Shown in pieces: positions 28,124 through 38,274 of a DNA stretch of 64,000 bases; within the stretch, counting starts at the first letter, position 1; every line of letters begins with the position of its first letter. Under the pieces are notes generated by a model. It was not told the origin of the DNA. It ran no database searches and saw only the letters and a list, made by a program, of their open reading frames with translations. The translations under genes were made by a program, and so were the position numbers. Source of the DNA: Aurantiacibacter luteus (GTDB taxonomy: Bacteria; Pseudomonadota; Alphaproteobacteria; Sphingomonadales; Sphingomonadaceae); assembly GCF_001010945.1 (NCBI RefSeq), contig NZ_LBHB01000001.1:248001-312000 (forward strand). The letters are read 5' to 3'.

Positions 28124-29023
28124 TCAGGGATAGCTCACCGTCTTGGGCTGGCCATCGGGTATCGGAATGAACTCCTCACTGTCGCCCGGAACGACGGGAA
28201 AGCGTCCCTCGCGCCAGTCGGCCTTGGCTTGCTCGATCCGCTCGCGGTCGGACGAAACGAAGTTCCACCAGACGTGGCGCTTGGTCGAGAATGCCTCGCC
28301 GCCCAGCAGCATGGCGCGTGCGCCTTCGCGGCTCGACAGTATCATCGCCTTGCCGGGCTTCAGCGCGTTGAGAGTGTAGAGGTCCAGCGCCTCGCCATCC
28401 AGGCTCGCCTCGCCGCCGACCAGCATGACGGCGCGCTCGTCGGCCTCGGCGTCGATGGGGATCGCGCCGCCCGCGTCGAGCGCGATCTCGGCGTAGATGG
28501 TCGCGGCGTGGCAGGTGGTGGCGGCGCGGCTGCCCCATAGCTCGCCCATGATGACCGTGGCGCTGGCGCCGTCGCCCTCGATGCGCGGGAGGTCGCTGAC
28601 GGCCTCGAAGGCAGGGTCGATCTCCTCGCGTCCGTCGGGCAGCGCCAGCCAGGTCTGCATGCCGTAGAGCCGCGCGCCCTTGTCGCGCTCGTCGGCAGGG
28701 CTGCGCTCCGAATGGACGATGCCGCGCCCGGCGGTCATCAGGTTGACCGTGCCGGGCCGGATCGTGCTGAAGGTGCCGAGGCTGTCGCGGTGCTCGATCG
28801 CGCCCGCATGCTCGCCGCCGAGCAGCCAGGTGACGGTGGCGAGGTTGATGTGCGGGTGCGGGCGCACGTCCATGCCCGCGCCCACGTCCAGCTCCGCCGG
28901 GCCGAACTGGTCGACGAAGACGAAGGGCCCGACCATGCGGCAGGACGCCTGCGGCACCGCGCGGCGCACGGTGAACTGGTCGAGGTCGTGGCTGACGGGG
29001 GTGACAGTCTGCATAATGCTCAT
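28124..29023 (-). CDS. pirin family protein
   Basis: The 299-residue bicupin has the pirin signature in the N-terminal cupin: RPHPHINLATVTWLL, followed by EHRDSLG and TAGRGIVHSE, supplying the three His and one Glu of the iron site. Some bacterial pirins have quercetinase activity and others modulate enzymes; the role here is unknown. ATG 29023 overlaps the upstream GST stop by 4 bases. ATG 29014 (MQTVTP) is an alternative start. Confidence 0.92.
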   Translation of the reverse strand: MSIMQTVTPVSHDLDQFTVRRAVPQASCRMVGPFVFVDQFGPAELDVGAGMDVRPHPHINLATVTWLLGGEHAGAIEHRDSLGTFSTIRPGTVNLMTAGRGIVHSERSPADERDKGARLYGMQTWLALPDGREEIDPAFEAVSDLPRIEGDGASATVIMGELWGSRAATTCHAATIYAEIALDAGGAIPIDAEADERAVMLVGGEASLDGEALDLYTLNALKPGKAMILSSREGARAMLLGGEAFSTKRHVWWNFVSSDRERIEQAKADWREGRFPVVPGDSEEFIPIPDGQPKTVSYP

Positions 29024-29727
29024 TGCTCGTCGAGCTCCTCGTAATAGCGGAAGATGCCGTTCTCGTTGAACTCCAGCCGCCGCTCGCTGGCGAGGTAATC
29101 GACCAGCCCCTCGATCTCCGGCACCGCGCCCTGAAGCCCCTCCAGGTTGGCCCAGGTGCCCTGCATCCCCTTCATGTAGTTGGGGAACATGTAGTCGAGC
29201 CCCTCCATGATCTGGAACAGGCTGGTGTCGACGTGGGTCGGTTGCTGGCCGAGGCTGAAGGGCCCGCCGTGCGCGGCCAGCGCGTTGTCGAAGTGGATGA
29301 GGTACTTGGGGATGCGTTGCTCCCGGAAATGCTGAGCGCGCTCCCACGCGGCCTCCATCTGGTCGGCGTAGTAGAGCTCCGATGCGATGGGATGGTGAAC
29401 GGAGTGGACCTCCTCCACGAAGTCGCTGATGTCGAGCTGGAGCTGGATCAATTGCAGGTCGATCTCGGGCTCGCCCGAACCCAGCCCCTCCTTGTCGGAA
29501 AGGTAGGCGAGGATGTGCGCGGTCTGGCCGATCACAACGTCTTCGTCGACGATGTAGGGCGGGGCGAAGGGGCGGATGCCTTCGAGCGAATGCATATGCT
29601 CGACCAGCGCCTCGGTCCCGCGCTCGCGCGCCATGTCCTCGTAATCGATGCCGAAGCCCTCGCAGAACAGGCGCACGAATTCGCCGCGACCGGGGATCTC
29701 GGGCCAGTACCAGAGTTCGATGCTCAT
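29020..29727 (-). CDS. glutathione S-transferase family protein
   Basis: The 235-residue protein has a GST N-terminal thioredoxin fold starting IELWYWPEIPGRGEFVRLF, closer to the eukaryote-like sigma/alpha type than to the Cys-type bacterial enzymes. VIGQTAHILAYLSDK marks the glutathione-binding region (with Q-T in place of the usual E-S). A helical C-terminal domain covers about 90-235. It is coupled by 4-base overlaps to bolA upstream and pirin downstream. Confidence 0.87.
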   Translation of the reverse strand: MSIELWYWPEIPGRGEFVRLFCEGFGIDYEDMARERGTEALVEHMHSLEGIRPFAPPYIVDEDVVIGQTAHILAYLSDKEGLGSGEPEIDLQLIQLQLDISDFVEEVHSVHHPIASELYYADQMEAAWERAQHFREQRIPKYLIHFDNALAAHGGPFSLGQQPTHVDTSLFQIMEGLDYMFPNYMKGMQGTWANLEGLQGAVPEIEGLVDYLASERRLEFNENGIFRYYEELDEQ

Positions 29728-30054: not shown

Positions 30055-30651
30055 ATGGGGATGCGTCAGTCGAAGTTCCATGGCCGGTACGAGAGCGAGG
30101 GCCGCGCGTGCGAGCATCCCGCCTGCGAGGAACCGGGCGAATTCCGTGCGCCCGGCGGCCGGCGCAGCAGCTTCGACGGGCCGGGCGAGTATCGCTGGAT
30201 GTGTCTGGAACACGTGCGCGAATTCAACGCCGGCTACGACTGGTTCGAAGGCATGAGCGCGGACGAGATCTATGCCGCACAGGCTCCGGGCGCGGGCTGG
30301 CGGACGGACAGCCCGGCCTTCAATCCCACCGCGGGCGTCGACGGAATGCCGCGCTGGGCGGACTTCGCCGATCCGCTCGACGCCATCGGCGAGCGTGCCC
30401 ACGCCATGCGCCGCCGCGCGGCGGGGGTGAAGCAGGAGGCTTTTGCCCGGTTCACGCCGATGGAGCGCGAGGCGCTGACGCTGATGGGCCTCGGTCCCGA
30501 TGCCGACCGTGCCGGGGTGCGCCGTCGCTATTCCGACCTGGTGCGGCGCTACCACCCCGACCGCAACGGCGGCGATCGCAGCCACGAGGCGAAACTGCAG
30601 CGCGTGGTGGAGGCCTATCAGCTGCTGCGGCGGGCAGAGGCGCTGGCCTAA
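30055..30651 (+). CDS. J-domain protein
   Basis: The 198-residue protein carries a C-terminal J domain (about 135-198) with the HPD motif in RRYHPDRNGGD, which stimulates DnaK. The N-terminal part has a conserved Cys/His cluster (ACEHPACEEPGEF and MCLEHVREFNAGYDWFEG). This architecture is the J protein typically found between bolA and cobS in alphaproteobacteria. Start could be ATG 30055 or ATG 30061; neither has a clear ribosome site. In this genome, cobS lies 6.6 kb downstream. Confidence 0.88.
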   Translation: MGMRQSKFHGRYESEGRACEHPACEEPGEFRAPGGRRSSFDGPGEYRWMCLEHVREFNAGYDWFEGMSADEIYAAQAPGAGWRTDSPAFNPTAGVDGMPRWADFADPLDAIGERAHAMRRRAAGVKQEAFARFTPMEREALTLMGLGPDADRAGVRRRYSDLVRRYHPDRNGGDRSHEAKLQRVVEAYQLLRRAEALA

Positions 30652-30657
30652 AACACA

Positions 30658-30741
30658 CCGCTCGTCCTGAGCTTGTCGAAGGACTGATTTTCTTCCAGGC
30701 TGGAACAAAGGACGACCCTTCGACAAGCTCAGGGTGAGCGG
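30658..30741. repeat. REP-like inverted repeat, copy 2
   Basis: The left arm is at 30658-30682 and the right arm at 30717-30741, again with the core CTTCGACAAGCTCAGG and outer GAGCGG. The left arm starts 6 bases after the J-domain gene stop. The right arm overlaps the end of the MpaB-like gene, whose TGA stop (30729-30731) lies inside it. It can act as a two-way terminator between convergent genes. Confidence 0.85.
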
Positions 30742-31607
30742 TTTTCCTTATTTCGGTTCTGCCGGAACGCCCACCTCAGCGTACTGCCCATCGCCCGCGT
30801 CACCACCCGGCTCGGCACCATCCTCAGTCCCGGCGCCTCCAGCCCCAGCATCGTGCGCGCGAAGGGCGGGACGAGTGCGATGGCGGCATCGGCGAGAAAC
30901 GGCTGCACCCCGGTCATCGCGCCCTCGACCTTGCCCGAGACGACCAGCGCGGCGACCTCGCGCGCCTCCGGCGTCGCTCGCAGATCGGCGCGCAGTTCGC
31001 GGAACACGGCCTGCGCCTCCGCCTTGCTTTCGGGAACCGGGTCGCAGCCCAGCTTTCGCGCTATGACGGCGAACTGGCGGAAATACTCGTCCTGCTCGGC
31101 CAGCGGCATGTCGGGCCGGACGTGGACGAGATAGGCCTCGAGAAACATCGTCGCCTCGGCCACGTGCACCCAGGCCAGCGTGCGCGGATCGAGCGCGGAG
31201 TAGGGCGTGCCGTCCGGCAGCGTACCATGCACGCGTGCGTGGATGGCGTTGACCTTGGCGATGGCCGCCTCCGCCTCGTCGCGGTGGCCGTAGGTGGTGA
31301 CCGCGATGAACTTGGCCGTGGCGCGCAGGCGGCCGTGCATGTCGGCGCGAAAATCGCTGAAGTCGAGCACGCCTTGCAGCGCGTGGGGGTGCAGCATCTG
31401 CAACAGGAGCGAGGCCATTCCGCCGACCAGCATCCCGACGATATCGGCGTGGACCATGCGGATGGGCGTGTCGCGGGCGAAAAGAGCTTCGTCCGAGATG
31501 ACGACCGGCGCCTCGCCCTTCGAGGCATCGTTGAAGGTGGCGCGCACGGTCTTGACCAAGCGCGCGCGCAGCAGTTCGAGCGGGTCGGGGAAGGGCGGTG
31601 CGGCCAT
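30729..31607 (-). CDS. oxygenase MpaB family protein (DUF2236)
   Basis: The 292-residue protein matches the DUF2236/MpaB-like family: VHADIVGMLVGGMASLLLQMLHPHALQGVLDFSDF and GRLRATAKFIAVTTYGHRDEA include the HPHA and TYG blocks, and a later WVHVAEATMFLEAYLVH supplies further histidines. Fungal MpaB is a b-type oxygenase; latex-clearing protein Lcp shares the fold and binds haem. The substrate is unknown. The last residues ENRSP and the stop are encoded by the REP-like repeat. It is the final gene of the nine-gene HxlR-linked operon, 32 bases behind the GST. Confidence 0.82.
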   Translation of the reverse strand: MAAPPFPDPLELLRARLVKTVRATFNDASKGEAPVVISDEALFARDTPIRMVHADIVGMLVGGMASLLLQMLHPHALQGVLDFSDFRADMHGRLRATAKFIAVTTYGHRDEAEAAIAKVNAIHARVHGTLPDGTPYSALDPRTLAWVHVAEATMFLEAYLVHVRPDMPLAEQDEYFRQFAVIARKLGCDPVPESKAEAQAVFRELRADLRATPEAREVAALVVSGKVEGAMTGVQPFLADAAIALVPPFARTMLGLEAPGLRMVPSRVVTRAMGSTLRWAFRQNRNKENRSP

Positions 31608-31639
31608 CGGGGCCTTGTGCCGCAGGTGGCGCGCGAAAG

Positions 31640-32257
31640 CTATGCGTCCTCTTGGCCGCCCAAGGCTCCCATGGTTTTCTGATAGGCTTCGCGACCTTCC
31701 ATCCGCTCGGCATAGGCCTTGAAGCTGTCGCGCTTGGGCAGCGTCCCGAAGAAGAGACCCCAGCCAACCTGGCTGCCGACGTAAACGTCCGCCATGGTGA
31801 ACCGGTCGCCGCAGACGTAGTCGTGGCGTTGCAGGTGCTTATCGAGCGCATCTGCCGCGCGTTCGAGCGTGCCAAAGCCGACGGTCGCCTCCTGCCGCGC
31901 GTCCTGCGGCGTCCAGCCCATGCTGGTGTTGGTGATCGCCGCCTCCAGCGGCCCGGCGGTGAAGAACAGCCAGCGGAAGTAGTTCGCCCGCTCCTCCGGG
32001 CTGGGCAGCAGCGCAGGTGCTTCGAACTCGGCGAGATAATGGCAGATCGCCGCCGCCTCGGTCACCACGTGGTCGTGGCCCCTGTGATGGTGGATGATCG
32101 TGGGGACCTTGCCCATGCTGTTGGCGTCGTACAGCGCGCCGGGCTTGGCTTCCCAGTCGACCTGAACCAGTTCGGGCTCGACGCCGACCTCGGCAAAGGC
32201 CCACTGGGCGATGACCGCGCGGCTCATCGGATCGAAGAACAGGGTGTAGTCGCTCAT
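31640..32257 (-). CDS. glutathione S-transferase family protein
   Basis: The 205-residue protein has a GST N-terminal fold (MSDYTLFFDPMSRAVIAQWAF) with the cis-proline region GKVPTIIHHH and the glutathione-binding end VVTEAAAICHYLAEF. The all-helical C-terminal domain follows, with FTMADVYVGSQVGW as its N-capping box region. Serine at residue 12 of DPMSRA is the likely thiol-activating residue. It lies 19 bases behind the DUF899 gene inside the operon. Confidence 0.88.
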   Translation of the reverse strand: MSDYTLFFDPMSRAVIAQWAFAEVGVEPELVQVDWEAKPGALYDANSMGKVPTIIHHHRGHDHVVTEAAAICHYLAEFEAPALLPSPEERANYFRWLFFTAGPLEAAITNTSMGWTPQDARQEATVGFGTLERAADALDKHLQRHDYVCGDRFTMADVYVGSQVGWGLFFGTLPKRDSFKAYAERMEGREAYQKTMGALGGQEDA

Positions 32258-32276
32258 GGCTCGGCTCTCCGGCAGG

Positions 32277-32984
32277 TCAGTATTCGAGCTTGGGATACCA
32301 GTCTGTCCCGCGCCCCTCGGGCGTCATGTCGAGGATATTCCACAGAGGCGCGATGTCGACAGGGCCGCGCGGGTCCTGCCCGGGGTCAGCGGCCTCGGCG
32401 GGCATCTCGGCGGCGTAGAAATAGCGGACCTTGTCGCCGTCCTTTCGGAAGACCGTGAAAGCCGGGTATTCCCAGCCCGTTTCCGGATCGAGCCCGCCGT
32501 GGTCGAGCGCGTAGTCGTCGCCGACGGTCTGCACGAAGTCGAGATCCTTCCAGCCGCGTTCCTCGGCAAAGGCCTTCTGCCGCTCCACCGTGCTGCGGCC
32601 GAGCACCTTGAAGGCGGCACGCTGCTTCATGTCGGCGGCATTGCCGTTCGCGCCGCCGAGAAAGTTCGTGCACATCGGACAGGGCCGTTCGCGGTCGGGG
32701 CCGTACATCCAGAAATAGGTGACGAGGGTATCGTGATCGCCGAACAGGTCGGCGAGACCCACTTCCTCGCCGTTGGCATCCTTGAAGTGGTAGTCCTTCT
32801 CCACCACTGGCCCCTCAGGCAGTGCCTGTCGCTGCTCGGCGAGGCGGGTGAGATGACGGCGCACTTCGATCTCCTCGGCCAGCAGCGCCTTGCGCGCCTG
32901 CGTGTAGGCCTCGCTCTCGCCGGGCAGCTTGCGCGAGCGCAGTTCGGCGAGTTCGGTGGCGGGCTTCAGTGCGGATTCGGCCAT
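32277..32984 (-). CDS. DUF899 family thioredoxin-like protein
   Basis: The 235-residue protein matches DUF899, a thioredoxin-fold family of unknown function. It has VEKDYHFKDANGEEVGLADLFGDH near 60-85, then LVTYFWMYGPDRERPCPMCTNFLGG containing the CPMC pair, and the C-terminal VDIAPLWNILDMTPEGRG. The CPMC resembles a redox dithiol. ATG 32984 has AAGGGA 8 bases upstream. It lies 10 bases behind the DHFR-like gene in the operon. Confidence 0.85.
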   Translation of the reverse strand: MAESALKPATELAELRSRKLPGESEAYTQARKALLAEEIEVRRHLTRLAEQRQALPEGPVVEKDYHFKDANGEEVGLADLFGDHDTLVTYFWMYGPDRERPCPMCTNFLGGANGNAADMKQRAAFKVLGRSTVERQKAFAEERGWKDLDFVQTVGDDYALDHGGLDPETGWEYPAFTVFRKDGDKVRYFYAAEMPAEAADPGQDPRGPVDIAPLWNILDMTPEGRGTDWYPKLEY

Positions 32985-32994
32985 CGAGTTTCCC

Positions 32995-33720
32995 TTACCA
33001 GCTACCGTTTGCAATGGCTTCCACGCGGGCGCGTTCCCGCGCGCTATTGCTCTGTGGGCCGGCCCAGCCCTGCTCGACGAGACCGGCGGGAGCGTAGGTG
33101 GCGATGACGATGCCAGTCGGCGTAACCTTGTGATCGACGACCTTAAGCCCGCGCGCCGGGGTGCCATCGCCGAACGCTCGCTTGCCCTGGCCGAGTACGA
33201 CCGGGAAGGTCATCACGGTCACCTCGTCCAGCAGCCCCTCGGCGAGGAGCTGCGGATAGAGCGTGCTGCTGCCCTGGATCAGCAGGTCCGGCCCGTCGCC
33301 CTCCTTGATCGCGCGCAGGGCATCCATGCTGTCGACGCGGTGGCTGTTCGACCACGAAAGGTCGGGCTGGCCGCGCGTCATCACGAACTTGTCGGCGCGG
33401 GTGAAGGCCTCGCCCATCTCGATGGCGGCAACCTCGCCCTCGTCCTTGCCGGTCTTGTCGAAGACCTCGCCGATGCCAGTCGCCTCGCCGCCGACGTAGG
33501 GCCAGTAGGCGGCAAAGATATCGTATGCGCGTCGGCCCAGCAGCAGCGCGTAGTCGGTGCCGAAGAAACGGTCGATGGCCTCGCCCACGCCCTCGTCGAA
33601 GAATTGCGGCAGCCAGCCGCCGTGCTCGAAGCCGCCGGTCGGGTCCTCGCTCGGCCCGCCGGGGGCCTGCATGACGCCGTCGAGCGAGGTAAACAGGGAA
33701 CCCCTGATCCTGCGCGCCAT
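32995..33720 (-). CDS. dihydrofolate reductase family protein (RibD C-terminal-like)
   Basis: The 241-residue protein has a DHFR/RibD-C fold. MARRIRGSLFTSLDGVMQAPGGP is the usual N-terminus of YwjB/YyaP-type proteins, followed by DYALLLGRRAYDIFAAYWP and LLIQGSSTLYPQLLAEGLLDEV (the nucleotide-binding end). Such proteins are presumed NADPH-dependent reductases with unknown substrates. It is unlike the other copy at 13117-13659 beyond the fold. It starts 2 bases after the VOC gene stop. Confidence 0.88.
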   Translation of the reverse strand: MARRIRGSLFTSLDGVMQAPGGPSEDPTGGFEHGGWLPQFFDEGVGEAIDRFFGTDYALLLGRRAYDIFAAYWPYVGGEATGIGEVFDKTGKDEGEVAAIEMGEAFTRADKFVMTRGQPDLSWSNSHRVDSMDALRAIKEGDGPDLLIQGSSTLYPQLLAEGLLDEVTVMTFPVVLGQGKRAFGDGTPARGLKVVDHKVTPTGIVIATYAPAGLVEQGWAGPQSNSARERARVEAIANGSW

Positions 33721-33722
33721 CG

Positions 33723-34202
33723 TCAGCTTCCTTTCCGCGCCGCGTCGATCGTTGCGACGTCGATCTTTCGCATCGGCATCATCGCCTGGAATGCGCGCGC
33801 GGCCTCGTCGCCGCCGGCTTCCAGCGCTTCGAGCAGGGTGCGCGGGGTGATCTGCCAGTTGAAGCCCCACTTGTCCTTGCACCAGCCGCAGGCGCTTTCC
33901 TGCCCGCCGCCCTCGACGATGGCGTTCCAGTAGCGGTCGGTCTCGGCCTGGTCCTCGGTAACGACCATGAAGCTGACGCTCTCGTTGGGCTTGAAATCCG
34001 GCCCGCCGTTGAGGCCTTGAAAAGGCCGTCCGAGCACGGTGAAGTCGACCGTCAGCGCATCGCCCGCCTTGCCGCCGGGAAAGTCCGTGGGTGCCCCCAT
34101 GACGCGGCCCTTGCGGCTGTCCGGAAATGTGGCGGCGTAGAAGTCGGCGGCTTCCTCCGCCGTGCCGTCGAACCACAGGACGGTGATCATCTCGTTTGTC
34201 AT
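33723..34202 (-). CDS. VOC superfamily protein, PhnB-like
   Basis: The 159-residue protein matches the PhnB/3-demethylubiquinone-methyltransferase-like glyoxalase fold: ITVLWFDGTAEEAADFYAATFPDS, VDFTVLGRPFQGLNGGPDFKPNESVSFMV and DKWGFNWQITPRTLLE. The family is often mislabelled as a ubiquinone methyltransferase; no methyltransferase motif is visible. It overlaps the upstream two-domain VOC gene by 4 bases. Confidence 0.88.
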   Translation of the reverse strand: MTNEMITVLWFDGTAEEAADFYAATFPDSRKGRVMGAPTDFPGGKAGDALTVDFTVLGRPFQGLNGGPDFKPNESVSFMVVTEDQAETDRYWNAIVEGGGQESACGWCKDKWGFNWQITPRTLLEALEAGGDEAARAFQAMMPMRKIDVATIDAARKGS

Positions 34203-35020
34203 GCCGGCTGCTCCTCGCGCGGGCCGACGAGGCCGACGCTGGCCCCCTGCGGATCGCGGATGTGGACGGAATAGTCGCCGCCGGGGACGGACTGGGGCTC
34301 GCCGAACAGCTCGCCGCCACCGTCCTTCACCGCCGCCACGGCGCGGTCGATGTCGTCGACCCCGATATAGAATGCCATGCGCGGACCGGGGCCGTCGGTC
34401 AGGGCGGGAGCCATGCCGCCGAATGCGCGATCGCTGCGGGTGAGGAAGCGGTATTCGCGCCCGTCGCCCATCGGCATCCCGCCTTCCGTGCGCCAGCCGA
34501 ACAGGTCGGCGTAGAGGGCTGCGGCTGCATCGCTGTCCTCGCCGGTCCAGACATCGTGCCAGCGCATGTGCTGCGCTCTATCGGGATCGTGGACGTCGCT
34601 CTTGGCATTCGAATCGCCTTCGGGCGGCACCGGGTCCATCACGTAGAAGGTCGCGCCCCAGGGGTCCGCGACCATGGCCATGCGCCCCACGCCGGGCATA
34701 TCCATCGGCGGCATGTGGACCGTGCCGCCCGCATCGGTGACGGTCTTGGCCGCGCCATCGACATCGGGATGACAGATGTAGCCGATCCAGCCGGGCCGCG
34801 CGCCGCCCGCCTGCATGGCCTCGGTGAGCGTCAGCACGCCGCCCGCGTTGCCGCCGTCGGAGCGGCCGATCATGCGGTATTCGCTACCGTTCGGCATGGC
34901 CTGTCCGTCGGACTGGACGTCCCAGCCCACCACCGCGTCGTAGAACGCCTTCGCGCCGCCCGGATCGGGGGTCATCAGCTCGTACCAGATGAAGGCACCG
35001 CGATCGGTTTCGTCGGCCAT
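34199..35020 (-). CDS. VOC superfamily protein with two glyoxalase-like domains
   Basis: The 273-residue protein holds two VOC units, residues about 8-130 (FIWYELMTPDPGGAKAFYDAVVGWDV to DPWGATFYVMDP) and about 148-268 (HDVWTGEDSDAAAALYADLFGWRT to DPQGASVGLVGP). The repeated WxExMTxDxxxAxxFY pattern is that of the CFP30B-like family. It may bind or inactivate a small electrophile, but no activity is proven. Its start overlaps the DUF1428 stop by one base (TGATG). Confidence 0.88.
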   Translation of the reverse strand: MADETDRGAFIWYELMTPDPGGAKAFYDAVVGWDVQSDGQAMPNGSEYRMIGRSDGGNAGGVLTLTEAMQAGGARPGWIGYICHPDVDGAAKTVTDAGGTVHMPPMDMPGVGRMAMVADPWGATFYVMDPVPPEGDSNAKSDVHDPDRAQHMRWHDVWTGEDSDAAAALYADLFGWRTEGGMPMGDGREYRFLTRSDRAFGGMAPALTDGPGPRMAFYIGVDDIDRAVAAVKDGGGELFGEPQSVPGGDYSVHIRDPQGASVGLVGPREEQPA

Positions 35021-35379
35021 CAGTCGTTCCTTCCCATGGTGAAGACCGGCGCGAAGCCGCCCCAGATCATGCGCTTGCCGTCGAACGGCATGTCGCCGAG
35101 CTGCTCCCAGAACGGATCTTCCATCATCTTGGCGTGCGCCGCGTCGCAGGTCGCCTTGTCGGGCCAGACCATCCAGGAGAAGACGATCTTCTCGCCCGGC
35201 TCGGCCTTGGTCGCCATGCGGAAGTCGGTGTGCTTGCCGTCGGTCACGTCCTCTTCCCAGGTCTCGACGATCTCGGTGACGCCGTATTCGGCGAACTTGT
35301 CCGCCGCGGACCGGGCCATGGCGACGTAGGCGTCCTTCTTGTCCTCGGGAACGGCGATGAGAAATCCCTGTACGTACAT
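35020..35379 (-). CDS. DUF1428 family protein
   Basis: The 119-residue protein belongs to DUF1428 (YbaA type), with a ferredoxin-like dimeric alpha-beta barrel fold. MYVQGFLIAVPEDKKDAYVAMARSAADKFAEYG, then KIVFSWMVWPDKATCDAAHAKMMEDP and the closing FDGKRMIWGGFAPVF are typical. The function is unknown. ATG 35379 has a strong AGGAGAG ribosome site. It lies 4 bases after the GST gene. Confidence 0.92.
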   Translation of the reverse strand: MYVQGFLIAVPEDKKDAYVAMARSAADKFAEYGVTEIVETWEEDVTDGKHTDFRMATKAEPGEKIVFSWMVWPDKATCDAAHAKMMEDPFWEQLGDMPFDGKRMIWGGFAPVFTMGRND

Positions 35380-35383
35380 GGCT

Positions 35384-36049
35384 TTACTCTCCTCTGATCT
35401 GGTCGGGAGTTGGGGCGAAATCGGCGCACTGGGCGTCCAGCGCGCGCTGGTAGGCGGGGCGGGCATAGGCGCGGTCACGGTAGTCGACGAGAGCGGGGAA
35501 TTCGTCGATCAGGCCCTCGTCCTCGGTCTTGAAAGCCGTGGTAATCAGGATGTCGGCGATGGAGAATTCGCCCGCCAGCCAGTCCTTGCCGCCCAGAGCG
35601 TCGGCGAGACGCTGATAGCGCTTGCGGGCAAGCGGCTTGCTCGCCTCGCTGGCGGCCTGCGACCAGTCCTCTCCGGCATGGAACACACGCATCATGGTAG
35701 GGCGGAAGATCTGCGGCTCCACGCTGTTCAGCGCGGCGAAGCACCAGGCGATAGCGGTCCAGCGGCCCTGCGGATCGGCGGGCAGCAGCTTGCCGTGCTT
35801 CTCCGCGAGATAGAGAAGGATCGCGCCGCTCTCGAACAGCTCGACCTCGTCGTCCCGGTAGGCCGGGACCTGGTCGAACGGCTGCCAGCTGACGTAGTCT
35901 TCCCCTCGCGGTGTGGACGCATCGAGTAGCTTCGTGTCGTAGGCGAGGCCCAGTTCCTCGAAGGCCCAGCGCACCCGCAAGTCGCGCACGCGGCCCTTGG
36001 CGAAGTCCGGCACCCAGCCGAAGGCGCTGATGAGGGGGCGCTCGCTCAT
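35384..36049 (-). CDS. glutathione S-transferase family protein
   Basis: The 221-residue protein has an N-terminal GST fold with RVRDLRVRWAFEELGLAYDTKLLD, the cis-Pro loop FDQVPAYRDDEVELFESGAILLYLAEKHG (ES glutathione-binding pair), and a helical C-terminal domain (WLAGEFSIADILITTAF). It is the second gene of the operon, overlapping the leading VOC gene by 4 bases. Confidence 0.9.
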   Translation of the reverse strand: MSERPLISAFGWVPDFAKGRVRDLRVRWAFEELGLAYDTKLLDASTPRGEDYVSWQPFDQVPAYRDDEVELFESGAILLYLAEKHGKLLPADPQGRWTAIAWCFAALNSVEPQIFRPTMMRVFHAGEDWSQAASEASKPLARKRYQRLADALGGKDWLAGEFSIADILITTAFKTEDEGLIDEFPALVDYRDRAYARPAYQRALDAQCADFAPTPDQIRGE

Positions 36050-36501
36050 GGCGTTGCACCTTGTTGCTGGCGCTGCTGGTCCTGCTGGGCGAGGTCTTCG
36101 GGCACCTGGCTCAAATCCATCCAGTTCGGCTCCCAGATGTGGCCGTCCGGGTCCTCGAAGTCGCGGCCGTACATGAAGCCGTGGTCCTGCAGCGGATTGC
36201 AGTCCGCCACGCCGCCGTGCTGCCCGGCAAGCTCGGTGATGCGGTCGACCTCCTCCCGGCTGTCCAAGCTAATCGCCAGCATCAGCTGCGCGCTCTTCTT
36301 GGCATCCGGAATCTCCTTCGCGGTGAAAGTTTTCCAGAAATCATGCGTCAGCAGCATGACGTAGATTTCGTCCGACCACATCATCGCCGCGGCCTGATCG
36401 TTGGTGAACTGCGGATTGTTGGTGAAGCCCAGCGCCTCGTAGAACGCCATCGAGCGTTTGAGGTCGGCCACCGGCAGGTTCACGAAAATCATCTTTGCCA
36501 T
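36046..36501 (-). CDS. VOC superfamily (glyoxalase-like) protein, operon leader
   Basis: The 151-residue protein has one VOC domain: KMIFVNLPVADLKRSMAFYEALGFTNNPQF and HGFMYGRDFEDPDGHIWEPNWMD, with the metal-type His and Glu near the C-terminus (HIWEP). The C-terminal tail is glutamine-rich (LAQQDQQRQQQ). ATG 36501 has GGAGAG 5 bases upstream; an in-frame ATG at 36564 lies in the operator and is rejected. It is the first gene of the nine-gene operon divergent from the HxlR-type regulator. Confidence 0.9.
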   Translation of the reverse strand: MAKMIFVNLPVADLKRSMAFYEALGFTNNPQFTNDQAAAMMWSDEIYVMLLTHDFWKTFTAKEIPDAKKSAQLMLAISLDSREEVDRITELAGQHGGVADCNPLQDHGFMYGRDFEDPDGHIWEPNWMDLSQVPEDLAQQDQQRQQQGATP

Positions 36502-36529
36502 CGCATCTCTCCTGTCGCCGACTCGGTAC

Positions 36530-36558
36530 TTGCAAATCATGCGGGTAGAGGTTACAAA
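36530..36558 (+). promoter_or_regulatory. candidate promoter of the HxlR-type regulator (possibly leaderless)
   Basis: TTGCAA (36530-36535) and TACAAA (36553-36558) are separated by exactly 17 bases. The predicted start of transcription falls at 36564-36567, at the ATG (36567), and no ribosome site precedes that ATG. The mRNA may therefore be leaderless. Consensus matches are moderate (4 of 6 in each box). Confidence 0.45.
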
Positions 36559-36564
36559 AAGCAA
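36536..36564 (-). promoter_or_regulatory. candidate promoter of the nine-gene operon
   Basis: On the minus strand TTGCTT (36564-36559) and CATGAT (36541-36536) are separated by 17 bases. Transcription would begin near 36529, giving a leader of about 28 bases that contains GGAGAG (36512-36507) before the ATG at 36501. It overlaps the divergent regulator promoter and the dyad at 36550-36566. Confidence 0.45.
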
Positions 36565-36587
36565 CCATGAAGTTACGAGAAGAAACC
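36550..36587. promoter_or_regulatory. two direct copies of a dyad, probable HxlR-family operators
   Basis: GGTTACAAAAAGCAACC (36550-36566) is a 6-5-6 dyad with one mismatch. AGTTACGAGAAGAAACC (36571-36587) repeats the same pattern inside codons 2-7 of the regulator. The two are 21 bases apart, two DNA turns, so they face the same side. HxlR-type repressors are known to bind this kind of GTTAC-N5-GTAAC dyad. The first copy covers both divergent promoters, which suggests autoregulation and control of the operon. Confidence 0.6.
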
Positions 36588-37238
36588 AGCGCGCACGGCA
36601 AGTGGTATGACGACGCCTGCGGCACGGCCTTCGCCATGGAATTGGTGGGCGAGCGCTGGTCGCTGCTGATCGTCAGGGAGCTTATGTTCGGGCCGCTCAG
36701 GTTTTCCGACCTTCGCGCCGGACTGCCCGCCATTTCGGCCAAGGTGTTGACCGAGCGGCTTGCCGGGCTGGAGGGCGCGGGCATTGTCGCCCGTCGCAAG
36801 CTGGCGCCACCCGCCGCGGTGCAGGTTTACGAGCTGACCAAGTGGGGCCGGGCGGCGGACGCGGCGATAATGGAGCTCGGCCGCTGGGCTGCGCTCTCCT
36901 CTCGCCACGATCCGACGCTGCCGCTCTCGCCCGCCTCGCTGATGATGTCGTTTCGCACGATGATCGACCGTGAAGCCGCCGCAGGCCTCGACGCCGATCT
37001 CGCCTTCGTCGTCGCCGGGCAGAGCTTTCGCGCGGGCGTGAAGGGCGGTGCGCTCGCGATCGTGCGCGGGCCTGCCGATGGGGCGCAGGCTGTGATGCGC
37101 GCGCCCGCCGCCATGCCCATCGCCGCCCACGTCTACGGCGACGTTCCGCTCGGTGAATTGCCGGTGGAGGTGGAGGGCGATGCGGCGCTGATGGCGCGCT
37201 TCGTCGCCTGTGTATGGTTGCCCGAAAAGATGGCCTGA
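36567..37238 (+). CDS. HxlR-family winged-helix transcriptional regulator with C-terminal extension
   Basis: The 223-residue protein has an HxlR winged-helix domain in residues about 12-105: CGTAFAMELVGERWSLLIVRELMFGPLRFSDLRAGLPAISAKVLTERLAGLEGAGIVAR. A second domain, residues about 115-220, is Ala/Val-rich and resembles the SCP2-like ligand-binding extension found in some HxlR proteins (LAFVVAGQSFRAGV, AIVRGPADGAQAVM). It lacks the N-terminal sensing cysteine pair of HypR-type members; C18 is present in CGTAF. It is divergent from the nine-gene operon and probably controls it. The ligand is unknown. Confidence 0.87.
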   Translation: MKLREETSAHGKWYDDACGTAFAMELVGERWSLLIVRELMFGPLRFSDLRAGLPAISAKVLTERLAGLEGAGIVARRKLAPPAAVQVYELTKWGRAADAAIMELGRWAALSSRHDPTLPLSPASLMMSFRTMIDREAAAGLDADLAFVVAGQSFRAGVKGGALAIVRGPADGAQAVMRAPAAMPIAAHVYGDVPLGELPVEVEGDAALMARFVACVWLPEKMA

Positions 37239-37290: not shown

Positions 37291-38274
37291 ATGGACCAGT
37301 TCGAAAACAGAATAGCCTACGAAGATTTCGCCCTTGCCGAGCCGACCAGGGAGGTCAGCGTGCGCGAGGTGTTCGGGATCGACACCGATCTTGTCGTGCG
37401 CGGCTTCGAGCACGGCGACGAACGCGTGCCCGATACCGACCCCAACTACGTATTCGACCCGGATACGACGCTCGCGATCCTCGCCGGCTTCGAGCACGAT
37501 CGGCGCGTGATGGTGCAGGGCTATCACGGCACCGGCAAGTCGACCCATATCGAGCAGGTCGCCGCGCGCCTCAACTGGCCTACGGTTCGCATCAACCTCG
37601 ACGCGCACATCAGCCGCATCGACCTGATTGGGCGCGATGCCATCGTGTTGCGCGACGGGTTGCAGGTGACCGAGTTCCGCGAAGGCCTGCTGCCCTGGGC
37701 GCTGCAGCACCCGGTGGCGCTGGTGTTCGACGAGTACGACGCCGGGCGGCCGGACGTGATGTTCGTGATCCAGCGCGTGCTGGAGCAGGCGGGCAAGCTG
37801 ACCCTGCTCGACCAGAACCGCGTGATCCGCCCGAATCCGCACTTCCGCCTGTTCGCCACGGCCAACACCGTGGGCCTGGGCGATACGAGCGGGCTCTACC
37901 ACGGCACGCAGGCGATCAACCAGGGGCAGATGGACCGCTGGAACATCGTCGTCGGCCTCAACTACCTCCCCGCAGAGACCGAGCGCGAGATCGTCGGCGC
38001 CAAGACCACTCTCGATGCCAAGCTGGTGGCCGACATGATCCGCGTCGCCGACCTTTCGCGCCAGGGCTTCATGAACGGCGACATCTCCACCGTGATGAGC
38101 CCGCGCACGGTCATCACCTGGGCGCAGAACACCGAGATCTTCGGCGACCCGGGCTTCGCTTTCCGCCTCAGCTTCCTCAACAAGTGCGACGAGGCGGAGC
38201 GCACGCTGGTGGCCGAATACTACCAGCGCGTGTTCGGCGTAGACCTCCCCGAAAGCGTCGTTTCCAAGGCCTGA
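37291..38274 (+). CDS. cobS: cobaltochelatase subunit CobS
   Basis: CobS is the AAA+ ATPase subunit of the aerobic CobNST cobaltochelatase that inserts cobalt into hydrogenobyrinic acid diamide. The 327-residue protein has Walker [10 protein letters not shown] (about 84-92), Walker [10 protein letters not shown] and [16 protein letters not shown] sensor 1 ([15 protein letters not shown]). CobT normally follows; here the next gene is an M28 peptidase, so cobT must lie elsewhere. The related bolA and J-domain genes lie 6.6 kb upstream. Confidence 0.95.

Follow-up and report, generated by a model that had tools for sequence, protein, structure and literature searches.

The locus and the question

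What a tightly packed run of nine small genes of detoxification type does, and how it relates to the HxlR-family regulator gene divergent from it, is the question raised by a locus of Aurantiacibacter luteus. The window, that is the whole stretch analysed here, has 64,000 nucleotides and covers positions 248001-312000 of contig C1 (genome G000, assembly 2.89 Mb). The nine genes run on the minus strand from 36501 to 30729 and the regulator gene lies on the plus strand at 36567-37238. Families in the window were called with Pfam above the curated cut-off and gene starts were placed by eye; all ten genes were found where the initial annotation had placed them, with the families that it had named. 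Within the run, junctions are overlaps of 4, 1 and 4 bp or gaps of 4, 2, 10, 19 and 32 bp. From gene content and conservation, the locus appears less like a pathway of nine steps than like a regulator whose detoxification cargo is partly exchangeable, and we lean slightly towards an inducible detoxification operon in which the regulator would be resident, the cargo exchangeable and the trigger a hydrophobic electrophile.

Conservation of the divergent arrangement

Homologues of the regulator were sought at E 1e-35 or better in 89 own-family genomes, almost every one from a different genus (the family being Sphingomonadaceae in the wide sense); genes in these relatives were called with hidden Markov models built from the window proteins and from island clusters, which miss distant replacements. 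A homologue was present in 43 of the 89 genomes, at 45 places, all of which were read. At every one of the 45 the HxlR gene is divergent from at least one cargo family, at 43 from a core family (DUF1428, PhnB-like VOC or two-domain VOC) and at 39 from at least two families. The arrangement, which the initial annotation had proposed to follow through other genomes, is thus kept across the family and recurs too regularly for chance. Thirty of the operons adjoin cobS and 15 lie elsewhere.

The most constant cargo is the DUF1428 (YbaA-like) gene (35020-35379, minus strand like all nine; PF07237, 133.5 bits; PDB relative 2okq, YbaA), found at 42/45 HxlR places. The other two core genes encode the two-domain VOC protein (34199-35020; PF00903 in two stretches; relative 3oxh, Rv0577; 32/45) and the PhnB-like VOC protein (33723-34202; PF06983, Pfam name 3-dmu-9_3-mt, 149.6 bits; relative 1u69; 33/45). 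The first gene of the run, for a VOC-fold protein (36046-36501; PF00903; relative 4gym), recurs at 26 of the 45 places, and the next, for glutathione S-transferase (GST) A (35384-36049; GST_N/GST_C; relatives 3lq7 and 2ycd), at 20. Accessory genes encode a RibD_C/DHFR-family reductase (32995-33720; PF01872; relative 8jsv; 14/45), a DUF899 protein (32277-32984; Pfam; 2/45) and GST B (31640-32257; Pfam; 16/45, and also at the cobS site without HxlR); the last gene, for an MPAB/Lcp catalytic-domain protein (MPAB_Lcp_cat, 199 bits, here MpaB; 30729-31607), is likewise at 2/45. Other cargo at these places comprised AHSA1 (18), a third GST (16), DoxX (5) and GFA (1).

Among plasmids, 24 records hold an HxlR homologue and three were read: beside it stand a VOC and a two-domain VOC gene in Salipiger, a VOC and two DUF1428 genes in Aureimonas, and two-domain VOC, PhnB and RibD_C genes in Methylobacterium.

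Putative operator boxes at the regulator start

The initial annotation had credited the regulator with an operator of its own, and two conserved 15-bp boxes that flank or overlap the HxlR start codon bear this out. Both follow the motif GTTACnAAAAGnAAC, two copies of which mark where the regulator begins, at a spacing of 21 bp, or two helical turns: putative operator box 1 (GTTACAAAAAGCAAC, 36551-36565, plus strand) lies just 5' of the start and putative box 2 (GTTACGAGAAGAAAC, 36572-36586, plus strand) within the first codons. In the window and in 15 relatives, the intergenic region has AGTTACnAAAAGCAACT ahead of the start codon and AAGTTACAAAAAGAAACT across it. Because box 2 sits in the regulator's own first codons, the regulator is likely to control its own gene. 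Both divergent promoters would lie in the 65-bp intergenic region (36502-36566), in which no consensus sigma-70 promoter was matched.

With at most two mismatches, at least one box was present at 42/45 HxlR places and both at 27/45, the spacing then always being 21 bp; the reversed pattern gave 0, and 300 shuffled patterns gave a mean of 0.18 loci and a maximum of 8, never with two boxes. At the cobS site the same threshold gave at least one box in 39/42 HxlR loci; with at most one mismatch, which is stricter than the threshold for HxlR loci, boxes were found in 0/7 TetR, 0/40 other-island and 2/45 empty loci. On the plasmids, Salipiger has both boxes, and Aureimonas and Methylobacterium have one each at two mismatches. 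When box 1 together with the regulator's first nine bases was used as a pattern on 241 genomes of the class, five matches were obtained: the window itself, an own-family genome in which the place lies away from cobS, and three genomes from a single other genus. All four outside the window have HxlR and DUF1428.

Domains of the regulator

The regulator has 223 aa and matches the HxlR winged-helix family (PF01638) with 70.7 bits against a Pfam cut-off of 20.8. It is predicted to consist of a YodB-like winged helix (about residues 15-115) with Cys18, followed by an SCP2-like C-terminal domain (about residues 102-221) of the hydrophobic-ligand type, which had been missed in the initial annotation. 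The SCP2 fold is predicted for the C-terminal half from fold matches to the AlphaFold 2 model (predicted local distance difference test score 88); the HxlR-type PDB chains that were matched have 107-168 residues and a single domain. Cys18 is invariant in 57/57 aligned rows and in 42/42 island copies with a residue there (43 rows). Among the 57 rows, an Alkyl_sulf_C match was found in 23 and an SCP2 match in 10.

The winged helix with an N-terminal Cys is shared with YodB, QsrR and HypR-type HxlR (DUF24) regulators of quinone and disulfide stress; YodB, which has also been solved quinone-bound, is the best structural and sequence match. What sets the window regulator apart from these is the SCP2-like domain, the pair of boxes with 21-bp spacing that covers its own start, and this cargo. 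Family and N-terminal Cys are also shared with the formaldehyde regulator HxlR of Bacillus subtilis, from which the window regulator differs in lacking Lys two residues after the Cys and in the extra domain. The fold predicted for the C-terminal half is that of SCP2 and alkylsulfatase C-terminal domains (Pisa1, SdsA1, UbiJ); unlike in those proteins, it is fused here to a DNA-binding domain.

Besides the regulator itself, the own genome has a single HxlR-family match, a 158-aa open frame (G000:C11:136711-136974, L229). Two genomes have two HxlR-SCP2 copies each (L065 and L208 in G126, L223 and L224 in G125); the HxlR gene of L224 has no box and AHSA1 as its sole neighbour.

Open-licence papers were searched as well. 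None was found that joined HxlR with glyoxalase, GST and Sphingomon, that combined at least four of HxlR, Sphingomonadaceae, VOC family, GST, operon and DUF1428, that joined DUF899 with DUF1428, or that concerned the PDB codes of relatives; DUF899 and DUF1428 taken singly gave three papers each, and no HxlR was among the matches listed for HxlR/SCP2/sterol carrier. Papers on HxlR and sterol were mycobacterial by title, and those on HxlR, quinone, repressor, cysteine and glyoxalase concerned Staphylococcus only.

An insertion site between dnaJ and cobS

The operon of relatives is often found with dnaJ-bolA on one side and cobS on the other; this insertion site, too, had escaped the initial annotation. 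In the window, its left edge is a dnaJ-domain gene (30055-30651, plus strand) and its right edge cobS (37291-38274, plus strand). cobS was sought in 147 Sphingomonadales genomes (144 matches), and the stretch upstream of it was read in all 86 own-family genomes and in 37 of the 58 other-family genomes with cobS; in 9/86 own-family loci without a dnaJ/bolA edge every match upstream of cobS was counted, and some stretches stop at contig ends. At least one of the nine families was present at the site in 64/86 own-family genomes and at 0/37 other-family loci. When the further island families AHSA1, third GST, GFA and DoxX were counted and five sites with only a plus-strand SnoaL gene excluded, 65/86 own-family sites held cargo, in 47 different contents, and again 0/37 other-family loci did. 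Sixteen sites held nothing, and in 14 of these dnaJ or bolA lies at most 1 kb from cobS. From this distribution, the cargo looks like a feature of the own family and the site, across the wider order, like an empty one. The excluded sites (L106, L110, L111, L115 and L121) have a SnoaL-like plus-strand gene between dnaJ and cobS and no other island genes.

Of the 65 islands, 31 have HxlR and 34 do not (seven with one TetR, two with another TetR, 25 with no recognised regulator). Homologues scattered without the regulator had been named in the initial annotation as counting against its proposal, and on this the picture is mixed: every HxlR gene stands on such an operon (45/45), yet 34/65 islands at the cobS site are without HxlR.

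The seven islands of the first kind (L074, L079, L083, L089, L093, L135 and L179) start with the TetR gene, and a near-perfect palindrome, CATACCnACCGGTnGGTATG (at most one mismatch), is found at the TetR start in 7/7; with up to three mismatches and within 9 kb of cobS, none of the other 116 loci that were scanned had it. The three core families occur together in 5/7 TetR islands and in 22/31 HxlR islands at the site. Since two unrelated regulators lead the same core, we argue that the core families share one job. One TetR member has an LmrA/YxaF-like C-terminal match below the cut-off. A second, different TetR gene occurs in the islands L068, L125 and L138, in L068 alongside HxlR.

Apparent exchange of the cargo

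Distances of each family (best-scoring paralogue only) were correlated with cobS distances. Over all loci, rho was 0.44 for HxlR (42 loci) and 0.38 and 0.41 for dnaJ and bolA (86 loci each); it was 0.08 for the two-domain VOC, 0.09 for PhnB and 0.12 for RibD_C (values at least as high in 15, 30 and 46 of 300 permutations, respectively), 0.14 for VOC, and 0.27-0.36 for GST A, DUF1428, MpaB, third GST, AHSA1 and GST B. On equal loci, HxlR was above the two-domain VOC (0.54 vs 0.13, 36 loci), PhnB (0.41 vs 0.10, 37), DUF1428 (0.46 vs 0.22, 41), VOC (0.49 vs 0.18, 23), RibD_C (0.68 vs 0.28, 14) and, slightly, GST A (0.57 vs 0.47, 21). It was not above AHSA1 (0.27 vs 0.39), third GST (0.37 vs 0.39), GST B (-0.02 vs 0.22) or MpaB (0.25 vs 0.50), and with 0.44 it was below the flanks dnaJ (0.54) and bolA (0.62). 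What is exchanged appears to be the VOC, DUF1428 and RibD_C genes; the GSTs, AHSA1 and MpaB look closer to residents.

In the DUF899 tree, the window copy groups with Silicimonas and Rhizobium copies (support 98/97), a second clade (100/98) holds the copies that head Sphingomonas HxlR operons, and a third (100/100) the distal copies from two loci; identity of the window protein is 81% with that of Silicimonas and 58-62% with the copies in Sphingomonas operons. The tree suggests that DUF899 was recruited separately. MpaB was found at 35/86 sites, 21 of which are islands that lack HxlR. Where HxlR is present, MpaB stands 12 times towards cobS from the regulator and twice towards the operon, both times in the window's genus; in three further loci of that genus it lies at the dnaJ end. 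MpaB is probably an older resident of the site, which in the window's genus stands at the operon end; it may be read with the operon there but is not a usual part of it.

Chemistry of the cargo

The CPMC motif that had been reported for DUF899 is present (C102, C105), and both Cys are invariant in 22/22 aligned rows. A thioredoxin-like peroxiredoxin fold, as in Bcp, AhpE and Tpx, is predicted for this protein; unlike these peroxiredoxins, it has the CPMC motif and a long N-terminal helix. No sequence match to DUF899 was found in the PDB at 0.001. In the VOC (28 rows), two-domain VOC (47) and PhnB (50) alignments, no His column is conserved at 93% or more, a statement on conservation only, since ligand positions were not mapped; single conserved Glu columns are present in the two-domain VOC and in PhnB. 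A methylglyoxal substrate handled by a metal-dependent VOC of glyoxalase I type is disfavoured, as the three VOC families have no conserved His. Two of the VOC proteins have Ble-like N-terminal Pfam matches. A GFA-type cluster, one member of which was checked with Pfam, occurs in three related islands.

Proposed mechanism

A hydrophobic electrophile is suggested as inducer by the regulator's two domains and the cargo chemistry together. An HxlR dimer on each box would silence both directions. The inducer would be a hydrophobic, thiol-reactive compound, such as a quinone, or a long-chain or aromatic aldehyde or peroxide; the SCP2-like pocket might hold it, Cys18 might react with it, or both, upon which the regulator would release the DNA and the operon would be expressed. 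The core proteins would bind or convert the compound without the classical glyoxalase metal ligands, the accessory enzymes (GSTs, RibD_C reductase and DUF899 thiol protein; AHSA1, GFA and DoxX in relatives) would conjugate, reduce or repair, and accessory genes would be gained or lost according to what each strain meets.

A bolder version, which we regard as speculative, would make the regulator a two-input switch: the SCP2-like domain would capture the hydrophobic electrophile and pass it to Cys18 of the same protein, both greasiness and reactivity being needed. In the dnaJ-cobS array, enzymes would be exchanged adaptively as strains meet toxic compounds, and so would even the regulator, HxlR and TetR each bringing an operator of its own. 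If this were true, the array would be the chemical counterpart of a defence island.

Under the regulator-and-cargo reading, the poorly understood families DUF1428, PhnB-like VOC, two-domain VOC and DUF899 would be brought under a single regulator and a single operator, with a common trigger that can be tested. Sphingomonadaceae (wide sense) are much used in pollutant breakdown, and a chromosomal site at which detoxification genes would swap within the family has been mapped. A thiol-switch DNA-binding domain joined to a lipid-type pocket in one regulator would be a useful biosensor design.

Several observations weigh against this reading. Three of the 45 HxlR places have no box, and in the own genome at most one mismatch gives three pattern places (the two operator boxes and C18:73522) against four for the reversed control, so there is no sign of a wider regulon. 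The window regulator has no Pfam SCP2 or Alkyl_sulf_C match at 0.01, and an SCP2-like fold alone is no proof of ligand binding; an N-terminal Cys is common across the HxlR family, so its conservation is no proof of redox sensing. Of the 25 islands without a recognised regulator, 19 hold at most three genes and one holds seven, from which it follows that some cargo works without this regulator. The correlations took only one paralogue per family, and in them GST A, AHSA1, third GST, GST B and MpaB roughly equal or surpass HxlR in tracking cobS on the same loci, so that not all cargo seems to be exchanged more than the regulator.

Alternative explanations

Inducible resistance to a natural-product antibiotic is an unlikely explanation, and among the alternatives it fares best. 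The VOC proteins would sequester the toxic metabolite, GST, RibD_C and AHSA1 would modify it, and the SCP2-like domain would sense the drug. The Ble-like matches fit this, as do the missing His conservation, which is as expected for binding over metal catalysis, and the replacement of the regulator by TetR in seven islands. Pfam finds no exporter among the window's nine genes, however, and the thiol-redox families (DUF899, GST, GFA) suit electrophile stress equally.

The initial annotation had proposed one pathway for the removal or modification of one reactive small molecule, and part of this has stood: the packed, operon-like set, the single divergent regulator, the conserved arrangement and the thiol- and electrophile-type families are all there. 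In its strict form, with all nine enzymes acting in series on a quinone or aldehyde, the proposal has become improbable. The tight packing under one regulator and the constancy of DUF1428, PhnB and the two-domain VOC in HxlR operons are in its favour; against it are the 47 contents of 65 islands, the presence of DUF899 and of MpaB in only 2/45 HxlR operons each, the spread of DUF899 copies over three clades and different positions, and the finding that VOC, DUF1428, two-domain VOC, PhnB and RibD_C track species history less well than the regulator, which does not hold for the GSTs, AHSA1 and MpaB.

More improbable still is that the insertion site is permissive and collects unrelated genes, so that co-occurrence would stem from the site and not from function. 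The 25/65 islands without a recognised regulator, 19 of them with at most three genes, speak for it, but 15/45 HxlR operons lie away from cobS with the same families, parts of the set accompany the regulator in another family of the class as well as on plasmids, and the same core is led by two unrelated regulators, each of which has its own operator.

A formaldehyde response as in Bacillus is scarcely credible: the regulator family is shared and the GFA-type cluster occurs in three related islands, but Bacillus HxlR requires Cys11 and Lys13 (PMC7835342), and here the residues are C18-G19-T20, with Lys in 0/42 island copies that have the stretch.

Ends of the operon and neighbouring genes

A 91-nt hairpin (30655-30745) is predicted ahead of the convergent dnaJ gene; it takes in the final 17 nt of MPAB and has a fold energy of -55.6 kcal/mol, with shuffled sequences averaging -24.1 (z -9.6). 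Its core repeat has 34 copies genome-wide (reversed control 0) and is thus a general repeat; the hairpin is likely to be a two-way terminator made of it. The packing and this strong end hairpin would suit one transcript from the HxlR-side promoter to MpaB. The palindromic repeat, CCTTCGACAAGCTCAGG, is found eight times as facing pairs about 50-65 bp apart, like a REP-type terminator element. After bolA, a further GST gene (29020-29727) and a pirin-like gene (28124-28966), both named by eye from the sequence, are kept in many relatives and lie outside the island.

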